NCBI GenBank assembly: GCA_030696315.1
Contig: JAUYSM010000033.1
Location: forward strand, 1 to 35,028
Direction: 5' to 3'
Length of the DNA: 35,028 nt
Source: Pseudohongiella sp.
GTDB lineage: Bacteria; Pseudomonadota; Gammaproteobacteria; Pseudomonadales; Pseudohongiellaceae
The translations under genes were made by a program, and so were the position numbers. The notes under the pieces were generated by a model. That model had not been told where the DNA came from and ran no database searches. It saw only the letters and a list, made by a program, of their open reading frames with translations. Below are positions 1 through 28,176 of the stretch, in pieces (the stretch's first letter is position 1; every line of letters starts with the position of its first letter).

Positions 1-185
1 TCTCCCAGACTGGCTTCGGTGAGTTGCAGCAAAAGACTTTCAAGCGTCGCGGGTTCAGTCATCTGAACCGCTTGTTCTGTGACCGGAGCAGGATCGTCAG
101 GCGTTTGTTCCGTTTGCCCATAAAGCGCCGGGATCAGACACAACCCCAACGTACATGCCAACAAACTTTTCCAGACGAGTCTCAC
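1..185 (-). CDS. urtB: Urea ABC transporter permease UrtB, N-terminal fragment (cut by window edge)
   Basis: An open frame starts at a GTG codon (183-185 on the minus strand) and runs off the left edge, giving about 61 residues. The product begins MRLVWKSLLACTLGLCLIP and continues with a charged Gln/Glu/Pro/Thr-rich stretch. This is a signal-peptide-like segment followed by an extracytoplasmic extension, which is typical of UrtB and unlike other branched-chain-type permeases. The start is supported by GGAG seven bases upstream. It lies 42 bp downstream of urtA on the same strand, the normal urtA-urtB order. The transmembrane part is outside the window, so the assignment rests on the N-terminus plus gene order. 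Confidence 0.72.
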   Translation of the reverse strand, partial: MRLVWKSLLACTLGLCLIPALYGQTEQTPDDPAPVTEQAVQMTEPATLESLLLQLTEASLG

Positions 186-227
186 GATCCTGCTCCAAAC
201 CGGCCAATCAATATCAGTAAGGCACAA

Positions 228-1529
228 TCAGTATGATTGGCCCGAGCACACACGAGTTACCGTGTTGTAATTGCCGCAGCGGATCGGAGCTGTCCAGTCT
301 GCTTCCAGATCTTTGGAGCCGTCCAGGAAGTCTGACCAGGCGTCACCTTCCACCAGACCTTCAGTTTCCCACACCACTTCAAACTGGCCGTTATCCTGAA
401 TCTCACCAATCAGCACTGGTTTGGAAATGTGGTGGTTTTTTCCCATCACCGCAATACCACCGGTCAGGTTGGGTGTTTCCATACCAATCATGGCTTGCTC
501 TACGGCATCAACATCCGTGGTGCCGGCTTTCTCAACTGCTTTGACCCACATGTTAAAACCGATGTAGGTCGCTTCCATGGGGTCATTAGTCACACGATTG
601 GTGTTGCCAATGAAGCTGTGCCACTTCTGGATAAATTCTGCGTTTTCCGGCGAATCTACACTCTGGAAGTAATTCCATGCGGCCATATGCCCTACCAGTG
701 GGCGCGTATCGATACCGGACAGTTCTTCTTCACCAACAGAGAACGCGATCACCGGAATATCTTCAGCAGACACACCCTGGTTGGCGAGCTCGCGGTAAAA
801 CGGCACGTTGGCATCACCGTTGATGGTTGATACCACGGCGGTCGCTTTACCCGCACTACCAAAACGTTGAATCTCGGCCACAATGCTCTGCCAGTCAGAA
901 TGGCTGAACGGTGTGTAGTTGATCATGATGTCAGCATCTGCCACACCTTTGGACTTCAGGTAGGCTTCCAGAATGCGGTTGGTGGTGCGCGGGTAAACAT
1001 AGTCGGTACCTGCCAGTACCCAACGCTCAACACCCAGATCATTCATCAGGTAATCCACCGCTGGAATGGCCTGTGTGTTTGGCGCAGCACCCGTGTAAAA
1101 AATATTTTTAGAAGACTCTTCGCCTTCATACTGTACCGGGTAGAACAACAAACCGTTCAGTTCTTCCAGCACGGGTAACATGGATTTGCGTGACACCGAT
1201 GTCCACGCGCCAAAAATGACACTGACTTGTTCCTGCGACAACAACTCGCGGGTTTTTTCAGCAAACAGTGGCCAGTCTGAGGCCGGGTCAACAACCACGG
1301 CTTCCAGCTGCTTTCCCAATACACCGCCATTTTTGTTTTGCTCATCAATCAGCATCAACACGGTATCTTTCAATGTGGTTTCACTGATGGCCATGGTGCC
1401 GGACAGTGAATGAAGCACTCCTACTTTGATGGTGTCCTGGGCAAAAGCCAGTTGGCTGAGAGCCGTCAGGCCCAACAGGCAAAGCCCCGCCTTTTTTATC
1501 ATGCTTGACATCATCAGTTGACTACTCAT
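228..1529 (-). CDS. urtA: Urea ABC transporter, periplasmic substrate-binding protein UrtA
   Basis: 433 residues. Residues 1-30 form a Sec signal peptide ending LAFA before QDTIKVG. The mature protein has the type I periplasmic-binding fold of the UrtA/AmiC/FmdD group. It carries blocks I recognise as UrtA-specific: VGVLHSLSGTMAISE near the N-terminus, VVDPASDWPLFAEK, a FGAWTSVSRKS stretch, FYPVQYEGEESS and STINGDANVPFYREL. Known role: UrtA captures urea in the periplasm with high affinity and delivers it to UrtBC/DE. The start at 1529 is backed by AGGAG six bases upstream; a later ATG (MIKKAG) lacks such a site. It follows the HupE/UreJ gene after 135 bp and precedes urtB. No urease gene is in the window. 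In this context it could capture urea made by the exported ureohydrolases encoded upstream. Confidence 0.95.
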   Translation of the reverse strand: MSSQLMMSSMIKKAGLCLLGLTALSQLAFAQDTIKVGVLHSLSGTMAISETTLKDTVLMLIDEQNKNGGVLGKQLEAVVVDPASDWPLFAEKTRELLSQEQVSVIFGAWTSVSRKSMLPVLEELNGLLFYPVQYEGEESSKNIFYTGAAPNTQAIPAVDYLMNDLGVERWVLAGTDYVYPRTTNRILEAYLKSKGVADADIMINYTPFSHSDWQSIVAEIQRFGSAGKATAVVSTINGDANVPFYRELANQGVSAEDIPVIAFSVGEEELSGIDTRPLVGHMAAWNYFQSVDSPENAEFIQKWHSFIGNTNRVTNDPMEATYIGFNMWVKAVEKAGTTDVDAVEQAMIGMETPNLTGGIAVMGKNHHISKPVLIGEIQDNGQFEVVWETEGLVEGDAWSDFLDGSKDLEADWTAPIRCGNYNTVTRVCSGQSY

Positions 1530-1631
1530 GGTTCACTCCTGGAAATTGCCTTGAAATGGAAATCGCACACACGACCGTGATTGTGGCGATTGAGTGGCCT
1601 ACGCAACAAGTCGGTGATTGACTGCCAGAAC

Positions 1632-1664
1632 TACGTCATTTCACGTACTACGCAAAATGACGTA
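1632..1664. promoter_or_regulatory. Perfect 10-bp inverted repeat between hupE-like gene and urtA
   Basis: TACGTCATTT (1632-1641) and AAATGACGTA (1655-1664) form a perfect dyad with a 13-base loop, directly after the stop codon of the HupE/UreJ gene and about 100 bp upstream of urtA. No T-run follows, so an intrinsic terminator is unlikely. It could be an operator for urtA or an mRNA-processing hairpin. The 11-mer AAATGACGTAG (minus strand, 1641-1631) recurs on the plus strand at 13392-13402, upstream of the TonB receptor. Function is unknown. Confidence 0.5.
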
Positions 1665-2729
1665 TCAGATTCCCAGTACGCGTTGGAGCGTCCAGAACAC
1701 ACCCAGCCCGCCCACTGAAAAAGTGGCTGCCCGAATCAGCAGCAACTCCATGTTCAGGGCACGGCGAACCAGCGCGAGGGTGAGAAGAACGGCGCAGACA
1801 AACAGGATTTGACCCAGTTCTACACCGATATTAAAAAATGCCAGCGCAACCACTGTGTCAGAGGCTGACACGCCCAGATCACCCAGCACACTCGCAAAAC
1901 CCAAGCCATGAATCAGTCCAAACATGGCGGTCACTGCCATTCGCCAGCGCTGCGAGTGAGCACTGCTGTCGTGCAACTGATCAGCGTCTTTTGTTAACAG
2001 ACACAGACGTGAATCGCGCGTGAAAAATACTTCGCGCGCCATAAAAACCACTGACAGCGCGATCACGGCCTCTACCGGCGTGATAGGGATATTGACCAAC
2101 CCCAGATAGGACAAGGCCAACGAAATCGAATGCCCCACGGTGAACGCTGTGATTAACCACACCAGCGAAACCCCGGTTGCCAACATCGCAAGGCAAAAAA
2201 CAAATGCAAGATGATCCCAGCCAATCAGCACGTGCTCGGTGCCCAATACCAGATACAACCAGGCTGAACTCGCCAATGATCGCGCTTCAATTTCTTCGTT
2301 CCAGTCGGGCAATTGCACGTTGATACCCGAGCGCGAACCCGACAACATCAGGGAATTAGTGCTGCCGTCCAGATAATTAAACACCACCCGACCACCGTCG
2401 CGCCCCCACGGCGTCACAATCAGCCCTTGAGTTCCGCGCGCACAATTTAATTCAAATTCAACACTGGGGAGAAATCCGGGTCCACTTTGCTGTCGGGTCA
2501 GTATTTCGCAGCCCTCGGGCAAGCCGATTGCCTGCGTCGGCACTGCAGTTTGCGGTAAATTATCAACACGCAAACGCAAACGCCCTGCTTCCTCATATTG
2601 ATAAAAGGTGAATTGAGCGATATCCAGATAGTGGGCCTGCGCCGACGGCGCCACTGACAACAAACCAAACACTGCCGCCAGAACCCAGAGGCTGAGCCTG
2701 TTCAGAATACCCGGTTTATTCCGTGCCAT
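1665..2729 (-). CDS. HupE/UreJ-family (HupE_UreJ_2 type) nickel/cobalt permease-like membrane protein
   Basis: 354 residues. A signal peptide (1-32, ending SAQA) is followed by a Cys-containing periplasmic domain (33-150) and then about six or seven transmembrane segments. The membrane part has the family's histidine/acidic motifs: GTEHVLIGWDHLAF (E165, H166, D172, H173), FTVGHS (H200), FGLIHGLGFA (H274) and FFNIGVELGQ (E304). HupE and UreJ proteins are associated with Ni2+ entry for hydrogenase and urease; the longer HupE_UreJ_2 group is less characterised. The ATG lies inside the end of the upstream foldase gene (14-bp overlap), so the two are probably translationally coupled. Being downstream of four arginase-family genes and upstream of urtA suggests metal supply to the ureohydrolases or to a urease. 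That role and the metal are inference. Confidence 0.85.
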   Translation of the reverse strand: MARNKPGILNRLSLWVLAAVFGLLSVAPSAQAHYLDIAQFTFYQYEEAGRLRLRVDNLPQTAVPTQAIGLPEGCEILTRQQSGPGFLPSVEFELNCARGTQGLIVTPWGRDGGRVVFNYLDGSTNSLMLSGSRSGINVQLPDWNEEIEARSLASSAWLYLVLGTEHVLIGWDHLAFVFCLAMLATGVSLVWLITAFTVGHSISLALSYLGLVNIPITPVEAVIALSVVFMAREVFFTRDSRLCLLTKDADQLHDSSAHSQRWRMAVTAMFGLIHGLGFASVLGDLGVSASDTVVALAFFNIGVELGQILFVCAVLLTLALVRRALNMELLLIRAATFSVGGLGVFWTLQRVLGI

Positions 2730-3621
2730 GAGCAGCTACCTCAGTGGCAACGGGTGCTGATGCGGCCGGCAGTATCACTTCGAACTGTGGCCTGATCAAA
2801 TCAACCTGCTCGCTGATCATGCGACGCTGTTCAGCATCCAGCCACGACTGGCGCACACGCATATAAATGTCTTCAAACTTGAGCGGCAGTGATGGCGTCA
2901 CATCACTGACGGACACAAAGTGATGACCACGAGGTGAGGTCAACGGACCGATCCAGCTGTTGCGCGGAGCGGCGACCACTGCCTCGTAAAATTCGCCACC
3001 AAAATTGGAGCGCAACACACTTTCGGCATAGCCATCAATGATGCTACCGAGCCAGTAGGTATCACCGGCAATCTGTTCGCCTGCATTCAGACGCGCCAAC
3101 AACCCTTGGCTGTTGTCCGGCAGCTCATTAAAAAATACCTGGGCAAAAGAGGCTTTGGGTTCCGAATAATAGTATTCAATATTGTCGAGATAGTGCTGCA
3201 GCATCTGAGCATCCGTTGGATCGTCTGGCAGACCCGCCCACAGCAGACTGATTTTCTCAATCATGTGTTCGCGGACTTTGCCATCATTCAAGTGCTGGCC
3301 GGTTATCAGGGTGTGCCGGAAAATCATTTCATCCTGCAACCACTCGTCCACCAATTGCCGGGCTTCCTCAGGCGTTGGCTCACGACCGGACAGCCAGGTG
3401 AACTCTTCCGTCAACGCACTCTGCAGATCATCACCGATCTCGATACGGGAGAGATTGACACTCGCCAGACCAGTCGGCGCGGACTCAAATACTTCTTCCT
3501 GCGCATCCGGCCCGAGCATATCAACCACAAAAATCAGCGCTGCGATGATAAAAAACAGGGTCAGAGGTTCTCTGATCAGCTTTGAAAGGGTAAATTTTTG
3601 CTCAGTCATTGGGTCTGTCAT
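2716..3621 (-). CDS. Membrane-anchored parvulin-like (PpiC) peptidyl-prolyl isomerase
   Basis: 301 residues. One transmembrane anchor lies at about residues 17-35 (LTLFFIIAALIFVVDML), with the rest predicted periplasmic. Residues 60-150 look like the helical chaperone part of SurA/PpiD-type foldases (DEWLQDEMIFRHT). Residues 155-250 resemble a parvulin domain and end in GPLTSPRGHHFVSVSDV, close to the family's GPv-S-yGyHii-v signature; the middle of the domain is divergent, so isomerase activity is not certain. The gene starts 38 bp after the lipoprotein ureohydrolase paralogue and overlaps the HupE/UreJ gene by 14 bp. The likely job is folding the exported proteins of this operon or the permease's periplasmic domain. 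A second in-frame ATG four codons later is an alternative start. Confidence 0.78.
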   Translation of the reverse strand: MTDPMTEQKFTLSKLIREPLTLFFIIAALIFVVDMLGPDAQEEVFESAPTGLASVNLSRIEIGDDLQSALTEEFTWLSGREPTPEEARQLVDEWLQDEMIFRHTLITGQHLNDGKVREHMIEKISLLWAGLPDDPTDAQMLQHYLDNIEYYYSEPKASFAQVFFNELPDNSQGLLARLNAGEQIAGDTYWLGSIIDGYAESVLRSNFGGEFYEAVVAAPRNSWIGPLTSPRGHHFVSVSDVTPSLPLKFEDIYMRVRQSWLDAEQRRMISEQVDLIRPQFEVILPAASAPVATEVAAHGTE

Positions 3622-3659
3622 TGGGTCAATGTTCCGTAATAAAAAGCGTCACCCGATTG

Positions 3660-5063
3660 TTAATCGGTGCCATCATCGAGTGTCAATGGTGACAGATAAT
3701 CTGCCTCCATGGTAAGGCCTGATTTGTTTAAAGCGACACCCGCCAGGCAGGCATTCATCACATAATTGGCATTCAAGGCACTGGTATAGGACACATCCAG
3801 CATCGGTGCCAGATCCAGAATTTCGAAACCTGCCACCTGATTTTCTGCACACAAACGCCGAATCAAGGGCAGCACTTCACGCATCATCAACCCGCCAGGT
3901 ACCGCGCGACCGGCCGCAGGCAGCTGTGAGGTATCCAATACCGACACATCAAAACTGATATAGACCGGCAATGCGGCACTGCTGGCCTCTTGCAACACTC
4001 TAACCATCACCGAGTCCCAACCTCTGCGTTCAACCTCTGCCATGGTGTGGTACATCACACCTTGCTCGCGCAGCCACTGCAATTCTTCGGTACCCGCGTG
4101 TGGCCCGCGTAAACCAAGCTGAATGAGATTACCGCCAGAAATACTGTTTTCAGTGATCAACTTATAGATGACGTCACGGTCAGAAACCTGATGAGCGCCC
4201 GTAGGCTCAGCATTAAAATGCGCACCCAAATGCACCACTGTGACGCCACGATTGTACTGCTCGCTGATGGCCTTGATTGACGAATAAGTCACGGAGAAAT
4301 CGCCACCCACCAGAAAGGGAGTGGTGCCGACCTCTACAATCTGACCGACCATCTCACTGATGTGCGCAATAGTACGATCTTTGAGCATCCGGTCTGCGGT
4401 GAAGTTGCCATAATCCACAATATTCAGATAGGCGTGGGGATCCTGCAGGGTAAACAGATTGCGGTCAGCGATGCCATGCATCAGACGCATGGCTTTGGGG
4501 CCATTGTCCGCATCACGGCTACCGCTGCTCAGACTTTGTGGCACGCCGGCAATTGCTATATCCACTTTGCCAGCAATCAGATCTTCTGGAAACACCGCCA
4601 CAGGCGCGCCTGCAAACGTGGGGATACCGCCGCCACCGCCGATATAACGCGACAAGTGGATGGGGCCAAAGTCGCGCCTGCGCGTCCACAGGGCTGTAGG
4701 TCTTACCGTCGTGCCGCTGTTAAATCCCTGATTTTCACGATTCAACAGGATCTCACCCATATCAATGCCCGGGCGCCATGCCAGCATAGATGTAGTTTTC
4801 ATCATGTCTGCCACAAAAGTTTGATTCTGTTCTGCGGTACGCATCATCAATTCGTCGGTCAACTTTGCTTCGGAGGCAAACAAACGCAGCGGCTCAGCAC
4901 TAAAAATATAGGCGCTCTGTGATTCGTCGAGCAGAGCAAGTCGAGAGCGCAAATCGCCGCTGTTGGCGACCAAGGTGCTTGCCTGTGGTCTTGGTGAGGT
5001 GCTTGCACAGGCCGACAGCAAAGCTGTGCAGACCATCGCGCTTATCAATTTTGTAACGTTCAT
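3660..5063 (-). CDS. Degenerate ureohydrolase (arginase/agmatinase family) lipoprotein, probable pseudoenzyme
   Basis: 467 residues from ATG 5063, which has AAGGA 8-12 bases upstream; the frame is open further upstream but that stretch overlaps the preceding gene. A lipoprotein signal ends in LSAC (Cys19), so it should be membrane-tethered. The fold is arginase-like (PTFAGAP at 148-154, GGD-S, AGF-I--LAPMLD near the C-terminus). Of six expected metal ligands, four are changed: GGDHS is GGDFS (Phe256), DAHxD is GAHFN (Gly280, His282 kept, Asn284), and DVD is DVS (Asp372 kept, Ser374). The TGTPVSGG substrate loop is replaced by AGRAVPGG. Binuclear metal catalysis is therefore unlikely. It follows the complete enzyme 5074-6504 by 10 bp, suggesting co-translation and a heteromeric or scaffolding role. 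It is not a decayed pseudogene: full length, good start, conserved core. Confidence 0.85.
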   Translation of the reverse strand: MNVTKLISAMVCTALLSACASTSPRPQASTLVANSGDLRSRLALLDESQSAYIFSAEPLRLFASEAKLTDELMMRTAEQNQTFVADMMKTTSMLAWRPGIDMGEILLNRENQGFNSGTTVRPTALWTRRRDFGPIHLSRYIGGGGGIPTFAGAPVAVFPEDLIAGKVDIAIAGVPQSLSSGSRDADNGPKAMRLMHGIADRNLFTLQDPHAYLNIVDYGNFTADRMLKDRTIAHISEMVGQIVEVGTTPFLVGGDFSVTYSSIKAISEQYNRGVTVVHLGAHFNAEPTGAHQVSDRDVIYKLITENSISGGNLIQLGLRGPHAGTEELQWLREQGVMYHTMAEVERRGWDSVMVRVLQEASSAALPVYISFDVSVLDTSQLPAAGRAVPGGLMMREVLPLIRRLCAENQVAGFEILDLAPMLDVSYTSALNANYVMNACLAGVALNKSGLTMEADYLSPLTLDDGTD

Positions 5064-5073
5064 CTGTTGATCC

Positions 5074-6504
5074 TTACTGTGTCTGTTGGCCTTCCACATA
5101 GCGGCGCTGATAATCATCCTGACCATGATCCAGCGTGGTCGGATTGAGGTAATGCGGATCGGTCAAACCTTTTTTTCGCATGGCAATGCCAGTCAGACAA
5201 GCCTTGACGATGGCAGCGCTGTGCAGTGTGGTTTTGTAAGTTGGGTCGAGCGCAGGCGCCACTTCTACCAGTTCAAAACCTGCCACATCACTTTCAGCAC
5301 ACAGGCGACGCACCAGTGGAATGGCTTCCCGTGGTGTGATACCCCCGGAGACCGGTGTACCGGTGCCGCCGGTGTACACCGGATCGAGAATATCCACGTC
5401 AAAAGACAGGAACAGGACTTTGCCTTTTTCGGTATCGTCGCGCGCTTCTTTGAGCACCCGTTCCAGCACAAAGTCCCAGCCGAATCGTTCAACTTCTGCC
5501 ATGGAGTGGTAACGGAAACCTTCTTCCTGCATCCATTTATAGGTTGCTTCGTCAGGGCTGCCGGCACGCAAACCCACTTGAATGTAGTCTTTGCCTTCGA
5601 TGAGACCTTCTGCCATCAACCTGTAAACCGGCTGCCCATGATCGATCAGATGGGTACGGTCGCGGCCTACATCGTAGTGGGCGTCAAAATGGACCACGGC
5701 GACTTTGCCTTTACCATAGTGATCAACCATTGCTGCAATGTCGGGAAACGCCAGTGAATGATCACCGCCAATAATCAACGGCAACGCGCCAGCCTGCAGA
5801 ATTTCGTACACCACACTGCGCACTTCCTGCACGGCTCGCTCAGTGTTGTTATTGTCGATAGCGATATCACCATAATCCACAATATTCAGTTCTGTGCTGG
5901 GGTTCACCTGTACATATTGATCGTTGCCCGACATGCCATACATGCCTCGCAGCGCCAGCGGACCATGATCGGCATCGCGCCAACCAGACCCCATGTTCAG
6001 TGGTGCGCCCACAATCGCCACATCCACGTCACCGGCGATCAGGTCTTCCGGGGTCAGAGCAACCGGTGCACCGGCAAAGGTCGGCAGACCGCCACCAAAA
6101 CCGCCTACATAACGCCCCAGTTCCAAGGGGCCAGCCTCGCGCGCAGGATTAAAGGAACCCGGGCGCCGCGTTGTCCAGGCATTAAAATCCGGCGCAGCGG
6201 TGTTCAGCGGAATGTAGTCGATATCGCGACCTTCACGGAAGCGCCGCTGGTCAGCCATCCACATCAGCGCTTCCACATAGGCAACCACTTCCTCAGCGCT
6301 GCGTTTACCCATCGCCTCAAACAAGTTGTCACGATTGCGGGTTTCGCGATTGAGATAATCAATCTGTTCTGCCGACAAACCGGTAATTTTTGCCTGTAAC
6401 TCTGGCGGAAACACGATGGGTTCCCGCTCGGTTTCGGGTTCCTGTGCCAATGCGGAGGACGCCGCAAACAGCACCCCTGCCATGAGATGAGTGTAACGTT
6501 TCAT
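5074..6504 (-). CDS. Exported ureohydrolase (agmatinase/arginase/guanidine hydrolase-like), complete metal site
   Basis: 476 residues from ATG 6504 (TGAGGT four bases upstream; the longer open frame begins inside the neighbouring gene). Sec signal peptide MKRYTHLMAGVLFAASSALA, residues 1-20. After a shared helical N-terminal region of about 110 residues comes the arginase fold with all ligands: H249 in GGDHS, D274/H276/D278 in DAHYD, D369/D371 in FDVDILDP, plus TGTPVSGG and VEVAPALDP (E414). This family hydrolyses guanidino groups to urea with a binuclear metal site, Mn usually and Ni in guanidine hydrolase. Candidate substrates are agmatine, arginine, guanidinobutyrate-type acids or guanidine; I cannot choose. 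The export signal is unusual, since characterised bacterial members are cytoplasmic. It starts 7 bp after the degenerate paralogue 6512-7870 and is followed 10 bp later by another. Confidence 0.88.
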   Translation of the reverse strand: MKRYTHLMAGVLFAASSALAQEPETEREPIVFPPELQAKITGLSAEQIDYLNRETRNRDNLFEAMGKRSAEEVVAYVEALMWMADQRRFREGRDIDYIPLNTAAPDFNAWTTRRPGSFNPAREAGPLELGRYVGGFGGGLPTFAGAPVALTPEDLIAGDVDVAIVGAPLNMGSGWRDADHGPLALRGMYGMSGNDQYVQVNPSTELNIVDYGDIAIDNNNTERAVQEVRSVVYEILQAGALPLIIGGDHSLAFPDIAAMVDHYGKGKVAVVHFDAHYDVGRDRTHLIDHGQPVYRLMAEGLIEGKDYIQVGLRAGSPDEATYKWMQEEGFRYHSMAEVERFGWDFVLERVLKEARDDTEKGKVLFLSFDVDILDPVYTGGTGTPVSGGITPREAIPLVRRLCAESDVAGFELVEVAPALDPTYKTTLHSAAIVKACLTGIAMRKKGLTDPHYLNPTTLDHGQDDYQRRYVEGQQTQ

Positions 6505-6511
6505 ATGAACC

Positions 6512-7870
6512 TCACTGACCGTGATCCAACGCAAGTGGCGACAAATAATTCGCCTCGGTGATTCCTTCCTTGCGCAGCGCGATACCGGCCAGGCATGCAT
6601 TCATCAGATAATTGACGTTCAAGGCTGACACATAAGTGAAGTCCAGCATGGGCGCCATGTCTGCCAGTTCAAAACCTGCAATTTCGGTTTCCGCGCATAG
6701 CCGTCTCAGCAAGGGCATCACCTCGCGCATGGTCAATCCACCCGGCACTGCGCGTCCGGCCGCTGTGACCTGAGCAGTATCCATCACACTGACATCCAGC
6801 GAGATGAACACAGGCTTTTGAGTGGCCTTGGCTTCATCAACCACACTGGCCAACACGCTGCCCCAGCCAGTGCGCTCCACTTCTGCCATGGTGTGGTACT
6901 TGACACCTTCATTGCGCAGCCAAAGCAGATTCTGCTCAGTGAGTTGTGGGCCATTCAGCCCCACCTGAATCAGATCAGGACCATCAACAACGCCTTCTGT
7001 TAATAACCGATAAGCAGCATCCTGGTCTGATAGCGTGTGAGCGCTGGTAGGTTTGGTATCCGAATGCGCGCCCAGTTGTACCACTGCAATCCCGCTACCA
7101 AGTGACGCTTGCACGCCCTTCACTGCCGAGTACATCACGCTGTGATCACCACCTACCAGAAAGGGTCTGGCCCCGGTATCTGCGATGTCTTTAACTTCTT
7201 TGGCGATGAACTCAACACCCATTTCAATGGCCATACGATCCACGCTGATGTCACCAAAATCGGCGAGATTCAGCGTTGCGGCCGGATCAACCAACAAGTA
7301 CAGATTGCGGTCTGCCATGCCATGTGATCCACGAATGATTTTTGGCGCGTTACGCGCATCGCGACTACCACTGCTCATGCTTTGCGGTACACCTGCAAAA
7401 GCGACATCCACCTTGCCTGCTACCAGGTCACTGTGTGTCAATGCCACCGGTGCGCCTGCAAAGGTCGGAATGCCTGAAATCGGACGAATGTAGCGGTGCA
7501 CACTGAAAGGCCCCGGATCGCGGCGAATCTGCCACAAAGCTTCAGGTTCGCGGATCAGGTTATTAAAATTTGTGGCTTCCTTGTTGAGTGGGATAGCGGC
7601 CATATCGGTGTCAGGGTCAAACGCCATGGCAGCAACGACGTCCATCAGATCACTGACGTACACCGCTATCTGTGCTGCAGATCTGCTTTCGAAGGCCTGT
7701 GTCAATTGTCGCACATTCATAATTCGCAGAGGTTCGTCGCTGGCCAGAAAAGAGCGCTGCTCTGCTGACAAGTCAGTAAACTTCTGAGATACCGCGGCAG
7801 GAAAATCCACGGCCATCACCTGTCCGGACAACAGCACCGCACCCAGGGTTAACGCTAATTTTTGTTTCAT
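6512..7870 (-). CDS. Exported ureohydrolase paralogue with partly lost metal site, probable pseudoenzyme
   Basis: 452 residues. Signal peptide of about 20 residues (MKQKLALTLGAVLLSGQVMA); AGGA about nine bases before the ATG supports the start. The arginase fold is clear (PTFAGAP 135-141, GGDHS with H243 intact). The second motif is GAHSD, so the first Asp is Gly267 while H269 and D271 remain. The third is DVSVMDT, so D359 is kept but the next Asp is Ser361. The Glu of VEVAP is Asp404 (ADMAP) and the TGTPVSGG loop is AGRAVPGG. Thus two of six ligands are missing, both also missing in the 3660-5063 paralogue, which places these two in one subfamily. It sits 26 bp after the complete enzyme 7897-9327 and 7 bp before the next complete one. 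Best reading: a conserved non-catalytic or altered-function partner. Confidence 0.85.
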   Translation of the reverse strand: MKQKLALTLGAVLLSGQVMAVDFPAAVSQKFTDLSAEQRSFLASDEPLRIMNVRQLTQAFESRSAAQIAVYVSDLMDVVAAMAFDPDTDMAAIPLNKEATNFNNLIREPEALWQIRRDPGPFSVHRYIRPISGIPTFAGAPVALTHSDLVAGKVDVAFAGVPQSMSSGSRDARNAPKIIRGSHGMADRNLYLLVDPAATLNLADFGDISVDRMAIEMGVEFIAKEVKDIADTGARPFLVGGDHSVMYSAVKGVQASLGSGIAVVQLGAHSDTKPTSAHTLSDQDAAYRLLTEGVVDGPDLIQVGLNGPQLTEQNLLWLRNEGVKYHTMAEVERTGWGSVLASVVDEAKATQKPVFISLDVSVMDTAQVTAAGRAVPGGLTMREVMPLLRRLCAETEIAGFELADMAPMLDFTYVSALNVNYLMNACLAGIALRKEGITEANYLSPLALDHGQ

Positions 7871-7896
7871 AATCGTTTATCCTCGTAGACCGGCTG

Positions 7897-9327
7897 CTAC
7901 TGATTTGCCTCTACATAACGCTGCTGATAGTCATCCTGTGCATGATCCAGGGTGGTCGGATTCAGATAGTGAGGATCCGTCAGACCCTTCTTGCGCATCG
8001 CCAGTCCCGTCAGGCAGGCCTTGGCGATCGCAGCACTGTGCAGCGCGGTGGTGTAGGTTGGATCCAGAGCAGGTGCCACCTCAACCATATCGATGCCCAC
8101 CACATTCGCCTCGGCACACAAGCGGCGCATGATGGGAATGGCTTCACGTGGCGTGATACCGCCGGAAACGGGTGTACCGGTACCTACGATGTAACTTGGA
8201 TCCAGCACGTCGACATCAAAAGAAATGTACAGTTTACGATCGCCTTCTTTGGCTTCTGCCAACACACGCTCAAGTACCCAATCCCAACCGAAGCGTTCAA
8301 CTTCTGCCATGGAGTGGTAACGGAAACCTTCTTCCTGCAGCCACTTGTAAATCTCTTCATTCGGGCTGCCTGAACGCAGACCAACCTGAATGTAGTCTTT
8401 ACCTTCGATGTGACCGTCTTTCAGCAGACGATAGATAGGAGAGCCGTGCGTGATGCCGTGTACACCGCCGCGACCGACATCATAGTGGGCATCAAAGTGG
8501 ATGACTGACAAATTGCCTTTGCCGACAACATCCACCAAGCCAGCGATGTTTGGATACTCCAGAGAATGGTCACCACCGATGATAAATGGGATGGCGCCGG
8601 TTTCTGTAATTTCACGCACAATGGCGCGCACGTGTTGCATGCTGCGTTCGGTATTATCGTTGTCGATTGCGATATCACCGTAATCAACAATGTTCAATTC
8701 ACTGTTTGCATTGACTTGCACATACTGGTCATTGCCTGCCATACCACCTTGCAAACGCATCACCAGCGGACCGTGATCGGCGTCACGCCAGCCTGAACCC
8801 ATGTTCAGCGGGGCGCCAACTATCGCAACCTCAACTTTACCTGCAATCAGATCCTCTGGCGTCAGGGCCAACGGCGCGCCGGCAAAGGTAGGCACCCCTC
8901 TGGGCAAGGCGATAGGGCCGGCTTCTCGGCTTGGATCAAAGCTGCTCGGGCGACGCGTCAGCCAGGCATTAAAATCAGGGTCAGCGGTATTTAAAGGGAT
9001 CGAGGCCTGATCACGACCTTCAACAAATTTCTGTTGGTCAGCAACCCAACGCATGGCTTCCACATATTCCACTACCTCTTGTGCGGTGCGTTTGGAAATC
9101 GCCTCAATCAATTTCTCCGTATCGCTGGCATACCGGCGGGTATTGGAGGGCGTACTGAGATAGGTCAGCTGCTCTGCACTCAGCAGTGACAATCGTTCGC
9201 TCAGCTCCGCAGGAAACTCCACCAGCTCCGGCTCTTTTTCTTCCTCTGCATCCTGTGCAAGCAGAGGGCCGGACAGGCTGAATGCCAGCATTGCAGTCAA
9301 CAGCATTTTATTTTTGAACTTAAACAT
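7897..9327 (-). CDS. Exported ureohydrolase (agmatinase/arginase/guanidine hydrolase-like), complete metal site, first of four
   Basis: 476 residues. Signal peptide of about 25 residues (MFKFKNKMLLTAMLAFSLSG followed by PLLAQ), then an acidic stretch. The same helical N-terminal extension as its three paralogues is followed by the arginase fold with intact ligands H254 (GGDHS), D279/H281/D283 (DAHYD) and D371/D373 (FDVDVLDP), plus TGTPVSGG and VEVAPALDP (E416). It is close to 5074-6504 over its whole length, including the C-terminal HYLNPTTLDH and QRYVE tail, but lacks the short YVGGFGG insertion before the PTFAGAP motif. Role by family: releases urea from a guanidino substrate; here most likely in the periplasm. 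Start supported by AGGA about ten bases upstream. It is the first gene behind the hairpin that separates it from the TonB receptor gene. Confidence 0.88.
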   Translation of the reverse strand: MFKFKNKMLLTAMLAFSLSGPLLAQDAEEEKEPELVEFPAELSERLSLLSAEQLTYLSTPSNTRRYASDTEKLIEAISKRTAQEVVEYVEAMRWVADQQKFVEGRDQASIPLNTADPDFNAWLTRRPSSFDPSREAGPIALPRGVPTFAGAPLALTPEDLIAGKVEVAIVGAPLNMGSGWRDADHGPLVMRLQGGMAGNDQYVQVNANSELNIVDYGDIAIDNDNTERSMQHVRAIVREITETGAIPFIIGGDHSLEYPNIAGLVDVVGKGNLSVIHFDAHYDVGRGGVHGITHGSPIYRLLKDGHIEGKDYIQVGLRSGSPNEEIYKWLQEEGFRYHSMAEVERFGWDWVLERVLAEAKEGDRKLYISFDVDVLDPSYIVGTGTPVSGGITPREAIPIMRRLCAEANVVGIDMVEVAPALDPTYTTALHSAAIAKACLTGLAMRKKGLTDPHYLNPTTLDHAQDDYQQRYVEANQ

Positions 9328-9364
9328 GTGCAGGTCCTATTTCAACTGACTTGATTTCGTGTCG

Positions 9365-9415
9365 AAAACAAAAAACTATCCACCAGCTTTTAATACATCA
9401 TTGCTGGTGGATAGT
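9365..9415 (-). terminator. Intrinsic terminator or attenuator between TonB receptor and ureohydrolase genes
   Basis: ACTATCCACCAGC (9375-9387) and GCTGGTGGATAGT (9403-9415) form a perfect 13-bp stem with a 15-base loop. Read on the minus strand, the stem is followed by a T-rich run (complement of 9365-9375). It lies 28 bp after the receptor stop and 48 bp before the first ureohydrolase. No convincing promoter fits in those 48 bases, so partial read-through is likely. That would give high receptor or differential enzyme expression, the usual effect of an intra-operon terminator. Confidence 0.8.
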
Positions 9416-9442
9416 CAGTTTGCTACACGAGCTTGTTCATGA

Positions 9443-12400
9443 TCACAGTGTCACATTGATACCCATGAAGAACGCTCGGCCAACCGGGCTTACCGGGTAA
9501 GCGCGTTCTGTAACATAAGGTTTTTCATCTGTCAGGTTGCTCACGCCACCGTAAAAACGCACGGTGTCGCTGAAGTCATAGTTGGCTGACAGGTTGTGAG
9601 CATAAAAGTCATCGGTGAAGATGTTCGGGCCGAAGTTCTGAACAGCGGTTTCGATCGCGCCGCTCAGTACCATCTCACTCATGTACTGTGAGCGCAGGCT
9701 GACACTCAATGGACCTCTGGCCATGTTCAGGTTCAACTGACCCGACCACTCAGGACGACGCATTTCCAGCAGATCCACGTCTACTACCGCTTCTTCGCCG
9801 GGTGCTGCTGGCTCAACAAAGTTCAGTTTCAGCTGCTTCGTCACTGAACTGCCGATGCCAAAGCGGTAACCGGCCATTTCGAAGCTGTAGTTCACGTTCA
9901 GGTCGACGCCTTCTGCCAGTGCCTGACCAAAGTTCAGCTGCGTCTGACGCAAGAAGGTGAAACCACCCGACTGCGCTGAAGTGGGTACGCGGTTACGATC
10001 AATCAGCGCACAGAAATCATTATTGATAGACGGAGCGTCGTAGCAGCTGTCCACAATGTTCTGCGATGAAATCTCGGAGATTGCGTCTTCGATTTCGATG
10101 TTCCAGTAATCCATGCTGATCATGAAACCATCCAGGAAACTTGGTTCATATACAAACCCGACAGTTTCGGTGATAGCTTCTTCAGGTCGCAGGTTCGGGT
10201 TACCGCCAATCACACCGGGGAAACCCGCAGACAATGGATCCACGAACTTGTAGCCGCCGGTTGTATCAAAAATATTGCTCTGCAAAACACCTTTTGCGGT
10301 CAGGTCAGCCACACAGTTGGCTTGACGCAGTGTCGGGTTCGGCGCGCTGCTGATTTGTGAGGCATCACAAGGGTCAGCTGGTCGGAAGTTCTGACCTTGC
10401 TCAGGTGAAAACAACTCAAACAAGTTAGGAACACGCACCGCCTGGCTGTAGTTGGCGCGGAAACGCAGATCTTCGATCGGCGCCCAGACACCACCAAACT
10501 TGTAGGTATCACTCGCGCCAAAGGTTGAGTAATCCGCACGTCGATATGCCGCATCAACAGTCAATGCTTCTGCAAAGGGGGCGCCGGCCAACAAAGGCAC
10601 TTCAACCTCAGCAAATACATCCCAGACATCATATTTGGCACTGGTATTCAGCAGTCGGTTGCCAGGTGAGCCACCCAAGCTCTTGGCGTTACTGACATCA
10701 CCTACCCAACCGCCAGCGGTAAACGCTCTGCCTTGTGGTGTGACACCACTGGCCAGCAACACACCCTGGTCAAACTGGTCAAATTTTTGTGAGCTTTTTT
10801 CTTCGCGCCATTCACCACCGGCCGCAAAAGATACTGCACCAGCGGGCAGTACAAACCACTCGCTGCTGGTTCCGCTTACAAACCCTGCGATCACAGACTG
10901 TTCAATGGTTTCTTCAACGGTACGCGTGTAAGTGAAGAAATCAATGGCTTCCTGACTGATGGAATTCTTTCCACCCCAGATGTTAGCGGGCTGACACTGT
11001 CCATCACCCGGTGTAAAGGTGAAGAATGGGGAACGCTGACGACCACCCAGATAGGCCGGGAAGTTAAACGGCGTGGTGTACGGGTAAGCAGTTGGGTTCA
11101 GGTCTGAACGGCATACCGGTTGCCCGGTGGCCGGATCGGTAACCGCGTCAATGGCCGCAAAAAAGCGGTCAGTGATCGGTGTAAATGGTGTCTCTAACTT
11201 ACGATCAAACCGGCCATAGTTGGCTGACACTTCGTAGGTCAATCCCAGATCATCCAATGATCCGCGCATACCACCGACCAAGCGGTAGGTATGACGCTCG
11301 TTCAGGGACTCGTTGTCACCCCAATCGTCCGAGTCACGGTTAATGTAGAGTCCACCTGGACCCACAAAACTCACGCCGGGGTTGCTGGCAAATGACCGCA
11401 GTTGCGCAGGCAGGAAGGGGTTATCCGGTGCGCCGTACAACAAGTCAGTTGCCTGGTTGCCACCACCACCAAATGTCACTTCGTGATACACATACTTGCT
11501 TTCTACAAACAATTCAGCCTGTGTTGACAGCTCGTACCTGCCATTCAGGTTCACAGCCCACTTGGTATCTTCCGGAATCACAAACGGGCGGTTTGGCGCG
11601 ATGTAGGTTTGATCCGCACCAAACTGGTTGAAGTTACCCGCCACCAGACCATCGTTGTGTGTGGTCAGATTGCCATTTTCATCAACAACCCAGCAGCCGC
11701 CAGCCGCGCCAAACGAGGCAGCACCATCAAGGCTGGAGTTGTATCCGGTGAAACTGTCCAGACAGTCGGACACACCGTTTCCATTCAAGTCAGGTTCGGA
11801 GCCCAACGGCACACGCGTTCCGAAGTCACCTAGCGCGATGATGCCGTAAGGTGAGGTAATGTTGAATGTGCGACCCGGCAGCAAGGCACGTGGTGGCGCA
11901 CCCACAATACGACCCAGCAACTCCGTTTCAGCAGCCGTTAACGTCGGCGTAGAACCGAATGCACGAGAAAAGTTGGTTGCAAACGCGGTTGGTGTTGGAA
12001 TTCTGAGACCAAATGGATATTGCTTGGTGTTTGCAAAGTTATAGAAACGCGAGAGGTTTGGCATGGTGGATGGATTAATGTCACCCTTCTGGAAGCGCAA
12101 CATCGGGTTCACATCACTGGTGTAACGTCCACCATCTGCCAGAAAGTCACGATCGCCGGCACGCAAGCCTTCGGAATAATCATGCTGCAAAGATAAGGTG
12201 AAATTACCACGGTCATCGTCAAAGTTCTGACCTATCAATGCACGCACGCTGGTGGTACCGGCATCGCCTTCACCAGACATGCCGGTTCTGAAGTCGATAT
12301 CAACGCCTTCAAAATCGTTTTTAAGCACAAAGTTCACAACACCTGTCACCGCATCCGCGCCGTAGACGGCAGATGCACCGCCCGTCAGCACTTCAACACG

Positions 12401-12880
12401 CTCAATCAATGCGGAAGGAATGGTTGAAACGTCAACCGACGAGGTGCCTTCGATGCCTGATACGTGACGACGTCCATTCACCAATGTCAATGTACGCTGT
12501 GATCCAAGCGCACGCAGGTTCAAGGCGCTACCACCGACGTTGTTGGCGCGACCGACGTTTTGAGCAGCTCCACCAATGGAGTCCGTGCTGGTCACAGAAG
12601 ACAACAGCGCCGGGTTTTCATTCAGGATTTCGCCAATATCAATGGTGGCTGAACTGGTCAGATCTTCCGAACTGATGACTGAAAGGGGTTGTGGCGAGGT
12701 CGCATTATCGGCGCGCTGCATACGGCTACCGGTGACGACCAACTCTTCAATTTCAGGTGCTGCGGCTGGTGCTGCGGCTTGCTGAGCATACGCTGCTGGC
12801 ATAACGGCTGCCCCGGCCAGAATGGCTATGGCGTAATGCAGGCGTCGGCGTCGAAATGGACTCAATGATTGACTTTTCAT
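9443..12880 (-). CDS. TonB-dependent outer-membrane receptor of the nitrogen-regulated ureohydrolase locus
   Basis: 1145 residues, long for the family. Signal peptide of about 32 residues (four Arg, hydrophobic core, AYA). A TonB-box-like EELVVTGSRM follows at about 44-53, then the plug domain with LNLRALGSQRTLTLVNGRR and IERVEVLTGGASAVYGADAV, then a large 22-strand barrel ending in GRAFFMGINVTL with the usual hydrophobic C-terminus. An extracellular-loop insertion holds DLNGNGVSD (about 364-372), a calcium-loop-like pattern, plus several Cys. The size and plug type resemble receptors for peptides or other sizeable nutrients; the ligand is unknown. It heads the gene block and is preceded by a sigma-54 element and an NtrC-like site, which ties uptake to nitrogen limitation. 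GGGGGT lies about ten bases before the ATG. Confidence 0.92.
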   Translation of the reverse strand: MKSQSLSPFRRRRLHYAIAILAGAAVMPAAYAQQAAAPAAAPEIEELVVTGSRMQRADNATSPQPLSVISSEDLTSSATIDIGEILNENPALLSSVTSTDSIGGAAQNVGRANNVGGSALNLRALGSQRTLTLVNGRRHVSGIEGTSSVDVSTIPSALIERVEVLTGGASAVYGADAVTGVVNFVLKNDFEGVDIDFRTGMSGEGDAGTTSVRALIGQNFDDDRGNFTLSLQHDYSEGLRAGDRDFLADGGRYTSDVNPMLRFQKGDINPSTMPNLSRFYNFANTKQYPFGLRIPTPTAFATNFSRAFGSTPTLTAAETELLGRIVGAPPRALLPGRTFNITSPYGIIALGDFGTRVPLGSEPDLNGNGVSDCLDSFTGYNSSLDGAASFGAAGGCWVVDENGNLTTHNDGLVAGNFNQFGADQTYIAPNRPFVIPEDTKWAVNLNGRYELSTQAELFVESKYVYHEVTFGGGGNQATDLLYGAPDNPFLPAQLRSFASNPGVSFVGPGGLYINRDSDDWGDNESLNERHTYRLVGGMRGSLDDLGLTYEVSANYGRFDRKLETPFTPITDRFFAAIDAVTDPATGQPVCRSDLNPTAYPYTTPFNFPAYLGGRQRSPFFTFTPGDGQCQPANIWGGKNSISQEAIDFFTYTRTVEETIEQSVIAGFVSGTSSEWFVLPAGAVSFAAGGEWREEKSSQKFDQFDQGVLLASGVTPQGRAFTAGGWVGDVSNAKSLGGSPGNRLLNTSAKYDVWDVFAEVEVPLLAGAPFAEALTVDAAYRRADYSTFGASDTYKFGGVWAPIEDLRFRANYSQAVRVPNLFELFSPEQGQNFRPADPCDASQISSAPNPTLRQANCVADLTAKGVLQSNIFDTTGGYKFVDPLSAGFPGVIGGNPNLRPEEAITETVGFVYEPSFLDGFMISMDYWNIEIEDAISEISSQNIVDSCYDAPSINNDFCALIDRNRVPTSAQSGGFTFLRQTQLNFGQALAEGVDLNVNYSFEMAGYRFGIGSSVTKQLKLNFVEPAAPGEEAVVDVDLLEMRRPEWSGQLNLNMARGPLSVSLRSQYMSEMVLSGAIETAVQNFGPNIFTDDFYAHNLSANYDFSDTVRFYGGVSNLTDEKPYVTERAYPVSPVGRAFFMGINVTL

Positions 12881-13045
12881 CAGAAATATTACCCCCGGTA
12901 CTTCTCATCGTTGATCAGCCTGTTAAGGCTCCCGTTTTAAACCTGAGCTGCCCGCTTGGCGGAGTCAGCATCATCTGGTGCAATTTTTTCTGTGATCACA
13001 CTCAAACTATTTTGGTGCGCGGAAGAATTGCATGTAACACGCTTG

Positions 13046-13061
13046 AGCAAGTTACGTGCCA
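13046..13061 (-). promoter_or_regulatory. Sigma-54 (RpoN) -24/-12 promoter for the TonB receptor/ureohydrolase locus
   Basis: On the minus strand this reads TGGCACGTAACTTGCT, matching the sigma-54 consensus TGGCACG-N4-TTGCW at every defined position, with GG and GC ten bases apart. It points toward the receptor gene 166 bp away; transcription would start near 13034, leaving a leader of roughly 155 nt. Sigma-54 promoters need an enhancer-binding activator; an NtrC-like dyad lies upstream at 13157-13173. Confidence 0.8.
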
Positions 13062-13156
13062 CCGGAAGGCTTTCACTATTTATCAGGAACTTACAAAAAT
13101 GCGGGGAACTTTTGCAGAATAACTGTGTCACTTATGAGTGCACTATTTTTTAACAT

Positions 13157-13173
13157 GGCGCCCAATCGGTGCA
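13157..13173. promoter_or_regulatory. NtrC-like enhancer site upstream of the sigma-54 promoter
   Basis: The sequence holds GCGCC-CAATC-GGTGC, matching the NtrC dyad GCACC-N5-GGTGC at nine of ten arm positions, with a further A at the right end. Its centre is about 130 bp upstream of the predicted start site, a normal enhancer distance. A weaker relative (GCACC-AACTT-AGCGC) lies at 13298-13312. This supports nitrogen control, but the site is short and needs binding data. Confidence 0.5.
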
Positions 13174-13313
13174 CACAAATATGACTTTTTTATCTATTAA
13201 AAACAAAATGTTACGCGTATTTTTATGAATCTCTTTTAAAAACAAAAGGTTCAAAAATAAGTAAAATTAACACTTAAATACATTATGCAATATACGCGCA
13301 CCAACTTAGCGCT

Positions 13314-13402
13314 TGCGTATACCTACGCACATCAACACAGCTGACAAATTAGCTGCGACAGATGACGGATGCAATACGCGTCATCTGCGTTAAATGACGT
13401 AG
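13314..13402. promoter_or_regulatory. Cluster of short dyads plus the AAATGACGTAG motif
   Basis: TGCGTA-TACC-TACGCA (13314-13329) is a perfect dyad. CAGATGACG (13359-13367) pairs with CGTCATCTG (13379-13387). AAATGACGTAG (13392-13402) exactly repeats an arm of the inverted repeat upstream of urtA (1641-1631), where TACGCA/TGCGTA also occurs. These could be operators shared by the two ends of the locus, or control the plus-strand gene at 13486. Function is not known. Confidence 0.4.
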
Positions 13403-13485
13403 CGTTGCACGAACCAAGTTTGGGGATTATGCTCATCGCTAACAAAAACTCCTTGTTAACAAAAAATAGAGACAAAAATAGCAAC

Positions 13486-15105
13486 ATGCGGTCGTGCGCG
13501 TCGGGCACTCGCCCTCATCAACTTTTCTCACTGTTGCTTGCCGGTCTGTTTATTGGCGGGCTGCTGCAGGCACAAACGTTTGAGCCCGTATCCGCTTTCC
13601 CGCTATCTGATGAATCCAGCGTCGATCGCTCAGGATTTGCAGCACCCGGTCAAATGACGTGGACTCAACTGACCGACTTTGAGCAATCCGTGATACAGCG
13701 CTTCAACACGCAAACGTCTGAACCCGACGCGAGTGATCTGCTGGCCTTATACCTGATCGCGTCAGGTGACATTCGCGATGATGATCAAGTAAAGCCGTTT
13801 CAAACACACCTCGAACTTTTTTTTGAGCAACATCAGGATGTGCTGCGCATCCGGGATGAACGTGAACGCGGGGCGCAATTGCTCAAACGTATGCACCTGC
13901 ACTTCTTCTCTGCCGATGAGCGCTCTCCTCTGGCCGGTTACGATGCGGACCAAAGCCAATTGAGCGCCTTGTTGCGCACGGGTGTTTACAACTGCATCAG
14001 CTCCGCTTTGTTGTATCTGGTGCTGGCCGAGACGGCAGGATTGGTCAGTGCGGGTGTCATCATGCCCTCGCACGCCTATGTGCAGATCACGTTGCCGGAT
14101 GGACGCATTGTGGACGTCGAAACCACCAGTGCTGACGGTTTTGATGTAGTGCGTGACGAAGCGTTTTTTAACCGACAGGCGGGCTCTTGGTTTGAATCGC
14201 GTCGTCTGGTGGTACCCAGCTTTGCTGACTACGAACAACGCCGGGTTGTCAGCCCCGCCGGGCTGGGTTACGAAAGCATGTGGAGTCAACATACCACTGA
14301 AATGCGCATGCCCTATGCTGACCGCATGCGTCTTGCCGAAATACGTGGCCTGATGCAATCTGAATACCTGGATGCACAGCACAATCGCTTGGTCTACTAC
14401 TACCGGGAAGCTGACTATCTGCGCAAACAAGAGAATCTGCCAGCGCTTGATCAACTGTTCACCCGAATCAGCCCGCTGCTGACCGAGTTCGACAATCAAC
14501 CTGCGGCGGCGCTGTTCAGCGACCCGATATCGGCAGTGCCGGCCTTGTTGTTGCAGGCCGAACGTGCGGACTGGCTGATTCGGACCAGCACTAGCAACAC
14601 GGTTGTACCGGGGCTGGCGGATCAAGGCCAACAATTGGCCTTGCACGTGCTGAGTCAGGCCAGCAGCGCACCCATGAACACGCAACTGATCCGTGACCTG
14701 GCGTATCGCGCACTCGGCAATCACCTTGGCAACTTGTTGGCGGCAGACGATCTGGTCACGGCGCGCGACCTCATTGCCGGGTTTCCCGATGATTGTGGGG
14801 CTTCGGCCTTCTGTGTTAACGCACTGGAGCAGTTTTATATCACGCAGGGCCAGCAATACTGGGCGCAACGCAACTGGCCACGTGCCATCTCACTTTATGA
14901 GGAATACCTGACGCTTGGGTTGCAAACCAACAACCGATCAGTGTTTGAAAGCAATCTGCAAACCGCCTACATGAATCAGGCAGAACAGTACTGGTTTGAT
15001 GAGGAACGTGATGAGGCTGTGGCCATGCTGGAGGTTTGTGTCATCAAGGTTGCGTCAGCGGAGCGTTGTCAACAGCGTTTGCAGTCTGCTCGCCAAGGTC
15101 GTTAA
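13486..15105 (+). CDS. Exported transglutaminase-like protein with C-terminal TPR-like helices
   Basis: 539 residues from ATG 13486, chosen because it puts a normal signal peptide (MRSCASG, then LFSLLLAGLFIGGLLQAQ) at the N-terminus. An in-frame ATG at 13429 with GGGG just upstream is an alternative; the Shine-Dalgarno for 13486 is weak. A transglutaminase/papain-like core is suggested by YNCISSALLYLVLAETAG (Cys170), MPSHAYVQI (His196) and VDVETTS (Asp210), in the order of a Cys-His-Asp triad. The C-terminal third is helical; NWPRAISLYEEYLTLG and the following segments look like tetratricopeptide repeats. Probable periplasmic peptidase, transamidase or binding protein of unknown substrate. 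It is divergent from the TonB receptor and overlaps the convergent gene by 62 bp. Confidence 0.7.
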   Translation: MRSCASGTRPHQLFSLLLAGLFIGGLLQAQTFEPVSAFPLSDESSVDRSGFAAPGQMTWTQLTDFEQSVIQRFNTQTSEPDASDLLALYLIASGDIRDDDQVKPFQTHLELFFEQHQDVLRIRDERERGAQLLKRMHLHFFSADERSPLAGYDADQSQLSALLRTGVYNCISSALLYLVLAETAGLVSAGVIMPSHAYVQITLPDGRIVDVETTSADGFDVVRDEAFFNRQAGSWFESRRLVVPSFADYEQRRVVSPAGLGYESMWSQHTTEMRMPYADRMRLAEIRGLMQSEYLDAQHNRLVYYYREADYLRKQENLPALDQLFTRISPLLTEFDNQPAAALFSDPISAVPALLLQAERADWLIRTSTSNTVVPGLADQGQQLALHVLSQASSAPMNTQLIRDLAYRALGNHLGNLLAADDLVTARDLIAGFPDDCGASAFCVNALEQFYITQGQQYWAQRNWPRAISLYEEYLTLGLQTNNRSVFESNLQTAYMNQAEQYWFDEERDEAVAMLEVCVIKVASAERCQQRLQSARQGR

Positions 15106-28045: not shown

Positions 28046-28176
28046 TGTGATGATTGTCCAATAAGTCCAGCGCCAGCTAAAGCAGAATCATGCTGCCAAG
28101 TCAACCCCTGAGCTGTGGCATAGCCAGCCCCCGAGTTTCATCCGACACTGTGATAAACACGGTAACTGGAGGCATT

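Follow-up and report, generated by a model that had tools for sequence, protein, structure and literature searches.

Alternating intact and degenerate ureohydrolases, predicted to be exported, in a Pseudohongiella operon with urea-uptake genes

Introduction

Why would a bacterium keep, gene beside gene, both an enzyme and a relative of that enzyme whose metal site has been dismantled? The question is raised by contig JAUYSM010000033.1 of Pseudohongiella sp. (Gammaproteobacteria; assembly GCA_030696315.1), the whole of which, 35,028 nucleotides, we call the window; it is contig C23 of a genome of 117 contigs. On its minus strand lie four consecutive genes of the ureohydrolase superfamily in the order I1-D1-I2-D2 (hereafter the array), where I stands for an intact and D for a degenerate ureohydrolase. 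An earlier note, made from the DNA letters alone, had interpreted them as exported, obligate heteromers of an enzyme and a non-catalytic partner. The comparisons presented here indicate, from patterns of substitution and descent, that D is a maintained pseudoenzyme under purifying selection and not a product of decay. They also lead us to favour, with fair but by no means strong confidence, an exported guanidino-salvage operon built on periplasmic I-D heteromers and feeding the urea transporter UrtABCDE and urease.

Two complete and two dismantled metal sites

The dinuclear metal site of this superfamily has six ligands, and both I1 (7897..9327, minus strand; 476 amino acids) and I2 (5074..6504, minus strand; 476 amino acids) keep all of them (H,D,H,D,D,D in the motif columns; residues 254, 279, 281, 283, 371 and 373 of I1). 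Four of the six remain in D1 (6512..7870, minus strand; 452 amino acids; H,G,H,D,D,S) and two in D2 (3660..5063, minus strand; 467 amino acids; F,G,H,N,D,S). All four proteins match PF00491, at 161.9 to 241.1 bits against a cut-off of 22 (I2, 237.1 bits; D2, 174.7 bits), and coordinate arithmetic gives gaps of 26 bp (I1-D1), 7 bp (D1-I2) and 10 bp (I2-D2). The alternating order, positions, spacing and motif changes reported in the earlier note were all borne out when open reading frames, Pfam matches and motif columns were checked.

Five positions in D1 are replaced (D282, S361, A371, R373 and D404), and in both D proteins AGRAVPGG stands in place of TGTPVSGG. The substitutions already described as common to D1 and D2 are real, and we add two further shared losses: the loop His after the DAHxD motif (H294 of I1) and the Glu of the VEVAP motif (E416 of I1) have both become Asp. 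I1 and I2 are 70% identical, D1 and D2 52%. The arginase fold is predicted for single chains of both I1 and D1 and would thus be retained in D; judged by their motifs, D1 and D2 are members of the superfamily by descent and not by catalytic site. I1 and I2 fall below the cut-offs of two agmatinase models, with 139.9 and 143.8 bits for TIGR01230 (cut-off 174.3) and 187.8 and 193 bits for NF002564 (cut-off 302).

By a rule of thumb for hydrophobicity, not a dedicated program, D1, I1 and I2 begin with signal-like hydrophobic segments, and D2 carries a lipobox (LSAC). Among complete open reading frames of at least 400 amino acids in the gathered set described below, the same rule recognised a signal-like N-terminal segment in 51/54 I and 46/46 D proteins; a lipobox was found in 9/46 D proteins, D2 included, and in 0/54 I proteins. 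An Arg-Arg pair near the hydrophobic stretch occurs in 12/46 D and 4/54 I proteins and in none of the window's four. I1 and I2 are probably exported through Sec, and some relatives may use twin-arginine translocation (Tat).

Degenerate genes adjoin intact ones

A query of the genome collection with three D proteins yielded 43 loci (two of them fragments and one with an I gene only), with host records of Pseudohongiella, Woeseiaceae, Lysobacterales, other Gammaproteobacteria and Alteromonas confluentis; an additional pair lies on a plasmid of the alphaproteobacterium Novosphingobium sp. RL4. This search employed two D-derived peptide patterns, which favour D-like genes, so that the frequency of solo I genes is not derivable from it; related strains (e.g., L012 and L013) are counted separately, and some loci share one genome. 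The resulting counts of 51 D and 59 I genes leave aside a fragment (L051), a relic (L061), ordinary relatives (L001, L009 and L062-L082), duplicate loci (L002-L007, L053 and L054) and later loci (L083-L086 and L088-L118). We distinguish type A pairs, in which I precedes D as in the window, from type B pairs, in which D precedes I. The latter kind is found on contig C28 (L008) of the window's own genome, where D3 (8269-9675) is followed by I3 (9697-11358); together with the array and an ordinary-sized protein of 319 amino acids (L001), this accounts for the seven PF00491 genes of that genome.

Of the 51 D genes, 49 have an I gene on the same strand no more than 400 bp away. The remaining two stand at contig ends: the one in L020 is 127 bp away from where its contig starts, and the one in L029 precedes an I gene whose beginning alone is present before the contig ends. 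Degenerate genes standing alone in many genomes, which would have spoken against a partnership, were thus not encountered.

In a sample of 244 genomes of the order, long exported D proteins were present in four (G000, G161, G183 and G204) among the matches listed; four others (G221, G140, G164 and G047) had intact genes only, among the loci classified, and G044 a fragment. A D model at E 1e-50 matched 1/369 genomes of the class sample. A mixed I/D model matched 8/398 genomes of the phylum sample, the long kind being confined to the window's own genome and a solo I gene in G1021, and 2/147 genomes of the family of Alteromonas confluentis, one of these matches being short.

Three loci or genomes deserve separate description. 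In Alteromonas confluentis (L040:441-11101), a TonB-receptor-like gene is followed by a solo I gene, genes for a peptidyl-prolyl isomerase (PPIase) and HupE, another solo I gene and then an I-D pair, in which the D protein has a lipobox and, at the ligand positions, H,D,H,R,D,S. The Novosphingobium plasmid, a 1.8-Mb replicon (L087:1-21355), carries an I-D pair with a D protein lacking one ligand only, a third exported I gene, two PPIase-HupE pairs, a TonB-receptor-like gene and UrtA/UrtB/UrtE-like genes. One further genome (G1115; contigs C10, C74 and C7) has eight exported ureohydrolase matches, not six, and so probably one extra pair.

Conservation and selection

At the five replaced positions, the old residue is present in 28/28 paired I rows of the alignment and the new one in 93-100% of the 27 D rows. 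When 38 D proteins are aligned, the first Asp and the Ser among the new residues never vary, and the Ala, the Arg and the second Asp are conserved to at least 90%, so that the replacements are more than chance. All five are also present in the D protein of Novosphingobium. The number of ligands left varies: most D proteins keep three or four of the six, some only one or two, and that of Novosphingobium five.

The ratio of nonsynonymous to synonymous substitution rates (dN/dS) is 0.05-0.07 for D and 0.03-0.05 for I. Over 29 type B pairs D has evolved faster than I (mean distance 0.38 vs 0.30), and the distances of the two are correlated (r 0.95, n 48; 0/2000 permutations as high), a correlation to which shared species history contributes. 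Low dN/dS, nearly fixed replacements and a single origin (see below) together argue that D is maintained and not decaying, and the selection on a non-catalytic partner that the earlier note had proposed is thereby supported.

One origin and possibly repeated doubling

After the motif columns had been deleted from the arginase-domain alignment, we built a tree of 71 rows: 69 out of 135 available sequences, and the two subunits of the metformin hydrolase MefH. The 63 exported rows form one clade (support 100/99, starred), within which all 27 D rows form another (100/99, starred). The 28 paired I rows group together, apart from eight solo I rows (89/89, not starred). The approximately unbiased (AU) test rejects neither a clade of all I rows (p 0.126) nor a grouping of D with solo I (p 0.382), so that D may have branched either from within I or beside it.

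D1 and D2, each with its orthologues, are sisters (96/89, starred), as are the D genes of loci L014-L016 (99/97, starred); support for the corresponding I branches is lower (88/51 for I1/I2; 93/97 for the I genes of L014-L016, with L018 inside). Because both sets of D genes are sisters, the tree points to two or more doublings of the pair or to homogenisation of its copies by gene conversion, which agrees with the duplication of an ancestral pair suggested before, the support on the I1/I2 side being just 88/51.

A precedent of separate descent

An enzyme-pseudoenzyme architecture among ureohydrolases is already known from MefH (also MetCaCb or MfmAB, described with the dimethylguanidine hydrolase DmgH; 2024), whose structure has been solved and in which adjacent genes of the same superfamily likewise encode an intact and a degenerate protein, both with the arginase fold. 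According to PMC11399263 and PMC11271267, MefH is an alpha2-beta4 heterohexamer, neither subunit is active alone and co-expression is needed; the beta subunit holds no metal, its homologues lack three to five of the six ligands, and its N-terminal structure caps the alpha pocket. The accession numbers and the mfmAB context were taken from PMC11647477 and PMC9800807. In plant arginases, the neighbouring subunit is reported to contribute substrate contacts (PMC7370999), which by analogy could be a general way for a dead neighbour to matter.

The two systems nevertheless differ. I1 is 26% identical to the alpha and D1 21% identical to the beta subunit over about 292 columns; the MefH subunits, with 357 and 348 amino acids, are without the long N-terminal part of the I and D proteins; and MefH-beta has R,G,Q,D,N,N at the ligand positions in our own alignment, so the replaced residues are not the same. 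A HupE/UreJ gene lies beside the MefH pair too (L090), and the window's HupE gave only a weak local match to the HupE of that plasmid (E 0.073). The MefH operon has HypA and HypB, neither of which was among the genes scanned in the window's operon and on contig C48. In the tree, MefH alpha and beta group with a GdmH-like protein (L072, named from its motifs) outside the exported clade, and the AU test rejects a topology that joins D to MefH-beta (p 9e-5). We therefore reject a common descent of the two degenerate subunits and, because MefH-beta falls outside the exported clade, the tree makes the pairing described here a second, independent origin.

The guanidine hydrolase GdmH is a single-gene enzyme. 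Its Synechocystis structure 7esr is the best PDB sequence match of both I1 (142.7 bits) and D1 (100 bits) and has the same fold (other entries are 7oi1 from the same organism and 9fek from Nitrospira). Ordinary ureohydrolases of about 300-330 amino acids, a size to which L001 conforms, share the fold and ligands of I and have neither a signal nor the N-terminal part; we know of no degenerate partner for them.

The analogy first offered, the enzyme-prozyme pairs of polyamine metabolism, must therefore yield to a nearer one: D remains compatible with a dead, activating paralogue of the prozyme type, and MefH/MetCaCb, from the same superfamily, offers a heterohexamer of an active and a metal-free subunit. 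The statement that no exported ureohydrolase pair had been described stands: none from bacteria, exported or periplasmic, was among the literature matches listed, in a search to which subscription papers and supplements were external. What is new here is the predicted export, the tandem arrays and the operon with a TonB receptor, a prolyl isomerase, a HupE/UreJ-like protein, UrtABCDE and urease.

The operon and its probable link to urea

On the minus strand, transcription would run from a gene for a TonB-dependent outer-membrane receptor (9443..12880; PF00593 and PF07715), which has the same place in L010-L013, L015 and L016, through I1, D1, I2 and D2 to genes for a PPIC-type prolyl isomerase (2716..3621; PF13145, 30.9 bits, cut-off 27), a HupE/UreJ-like membrane protein (1665..2729; PF13795, 134.1 bits) and UrtA, the substrate-binding protein of a urea ABC transporter (228..1529; TIGR03407, 567.9 bits, cut-off 492.75), all on that strand. 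Contig C48 of the same genome opens at base 2 inside UrtB (TIGR03409, above cut-off) and continues with UrtC, UrtD, UrtE, urease alpha (UreC, above cut-off), a UreE-like gene just below the cut-offs of its models and UreG (above cut-off); because of this start, the operon very likely continues there.

Relatives on longer contigs show similar arrangements, with the proviso that their gene maps label only homologues of the genes of the window and of L008. L012 has the TonB receptor, I, D, I, PPIase, HupE and UrtA, followed by UrtB, C, D and E (curated models, above cut-off); in L014 the array precedes PPIase, HupE and UrtA, with urease alpha further on; and in G161 (L114) D2, PPIase, HupE, UrtABCDE and urease alpha occupy one strand over about 10 kb. 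By coordinates, a urease alpha match lies about 9.5 kb past the last D gene in L016, and Alteromonas confluentis has a urease gene on its ureohydrolase contig about 12.5 kb away. PPIase homologues adjoin exported ureohydrolases in L010-L016, L021, L040, L042, L087 and L108, and except in L108 a HupE homologue adjoins the PPIase in each. Within the genus, arrays occur in 9/15 genomes and urease alpha in 8/15, all eight among the nine with arrays, a split with a probability of 0.0014 were the genomes independent, which they are not.

In another family, a solo exported I gene (G221, L108:2165-10129) is followed directly by PPIase and UrtABCDE, without HupE or D. This locus supports the urea link and shows that the pathway as such can do without D. 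Because exported intact genes without D exist, the general reaction does not depend on D, which is an add-on to the pathway; at the level of the pathway such genes speak against the word "obligate", applied to the heteromers in the earlier note, although paired and solo I proteins fall apart in the tree.

Several other observations were made at these loci. The relic in G044 (L061:1405-3504), a tenth genome of the genus beside the nine with arrays, consists of the end of a TonB receptor gene and a truncated I1, in a genome with no other long exported ureohydrolase match and no urease match. The sole Rfam match is to 5_ureB_sRNA (114.3 bits), on the minus strand of L016 at 20843-21125, and lies by coordinates opposite the gene for urease alpha, which is downstream of the array; it may reflect similarity of the urease coding sequence only and says nothing about substrate. 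A promoter and terminator scan of positions 1-13500 of the window gave 5 and 12 sites, below the shuffles (10.9 and 14.8), and is uninformative. Next to the operon and divergent from it, at 13369-15105 (plus strand), an open reading frame of 578 amino acids has only a sub-threshold transglutaminase-like match and a homologue beside the L010 operon; another, of 619 amino acids at 28090-29949 (plus strand), has no Pfam match at E 0.001.

What the degenerate partner may do

How, then, might the pairs work? We propose that the TonB receptor imports a guanidino compound through the outer membrane and that I1 and I2, to judge from their motifs and fold, would hydrolyse it in the periplasm at the dinuclear metal centre, giving urea and an amine. 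By the example of MefH, where beta assembles with alpha, each D would most likely combine with the I protein it is paired with into a trimer or hexamer of mixed composition. D might stabilise I and shape or cap the adjacent active site, and D2, if it is the lipoprotein that its lipobox predicts, could anchor the complex in a membrane. The urea would enter through UrtABCDE and be split by urease, a flow suggested by the gene neighbourhood. The operon thus probably harvests nitrogen from guanidine-type compounds outside the cell.

Some observations weigh against this proposal. The D protein of Alteromonas carries just three of the five replacements; 8/59 I genes, in a set gathered mostly with D patterns, have no adjacent D; and L012 and L013 hold two I genes and one D. 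One genome with an array (G1114, 91% complete, 700 contigs) has no urease match, and beside most type B pairs no gene homologous to those of the window's operon, the TonB receptor and UrtA included, was seen, other receptors and urease not having been looked for there; L021 and L042 do have PPIase and HupE genes alongside. A guanidine riboswitch was not found at the gathering score in the window or in L008, L011, L012, L016 and L037. HypA, a member of the MefH operon, was not found in any of the four genomes of the genus searched, and a nickel dependence deduced through HypA finds no support.

D might instead act alone, its rebuilt pocket (Asp282, Ser361, Arg373 and Asp404 of D1) forming a periplasmic binder or sensor of guanidino compounds or urea, or carrying a new metal-free or one-metal activity. 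The nearly fixed, non-random replacements, the retained fold and the purifying selection on D genes would all suit such a role, which we nonetheless consider unlikely: in the set seen, D stands beside I wherever the contig allows, the two diverge together, and in most D proteins few ligands are left for a dinuclear site, that of Novosphingobium keeping five. Less likely again, in our estimation, is that I-D heteromers do form and the operon detoxifies or remodels an exogenous guanidino compound, such as an antimetabolite, the use of urea being incidental. The lack of a UrtA homologue near most type B pairs, as far as was seen, would fit this; against it, array, UrtABCDE and urease are neighbours in relatives and tend to be present in the same genomes of the genus, and the solo exported enzyme of another family (L108) is also found with UrtABCDE. 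Finally, although tandem duplication is common and D evolves the faster, it is very improbable that D genes are relaxed duplicates kept through position and not function, and we reject decay, given their low dN/dS, the conservation of replacements that extend to Novosphingobium, their one origin and the lack of internal stops in long D genes among the matches listed.

Returning to salvage by I-D heteromers, we also entertain an extension of it that is speculative and, in our view, rather doubtful. The rebuilt Asp-Ser-Arg-Asp pocket, its Arg possibly replacing metals, might sense substrate or product and gate the partner's site; in arrays, I1, D1, I2 and lipid-anchored D2 might constitute one outer-membrane complex beside the TonB receptor that couples guanidino import to urea release, this class having evolved independently.

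Implications

If our reading is correct, the pairing of enzyme and pseudoenzyme arose at least twice among ureohydrolases, in cytoplasmic MefH and in an exported, tandemly amplified family, and two such origins would allow the purpose of a dead ureohydrolase subunit to be asked. Stages of ligand loss could be compared in living lineages, from the D protein of Novosphingobium, which lacks one ligand, to D2 of the window, which lacks four. The operon would then represent an undescribed nutrient route, in which urea is stripped from guanidino compounds outside the cytoplasm and taken up by UrtABCDE.

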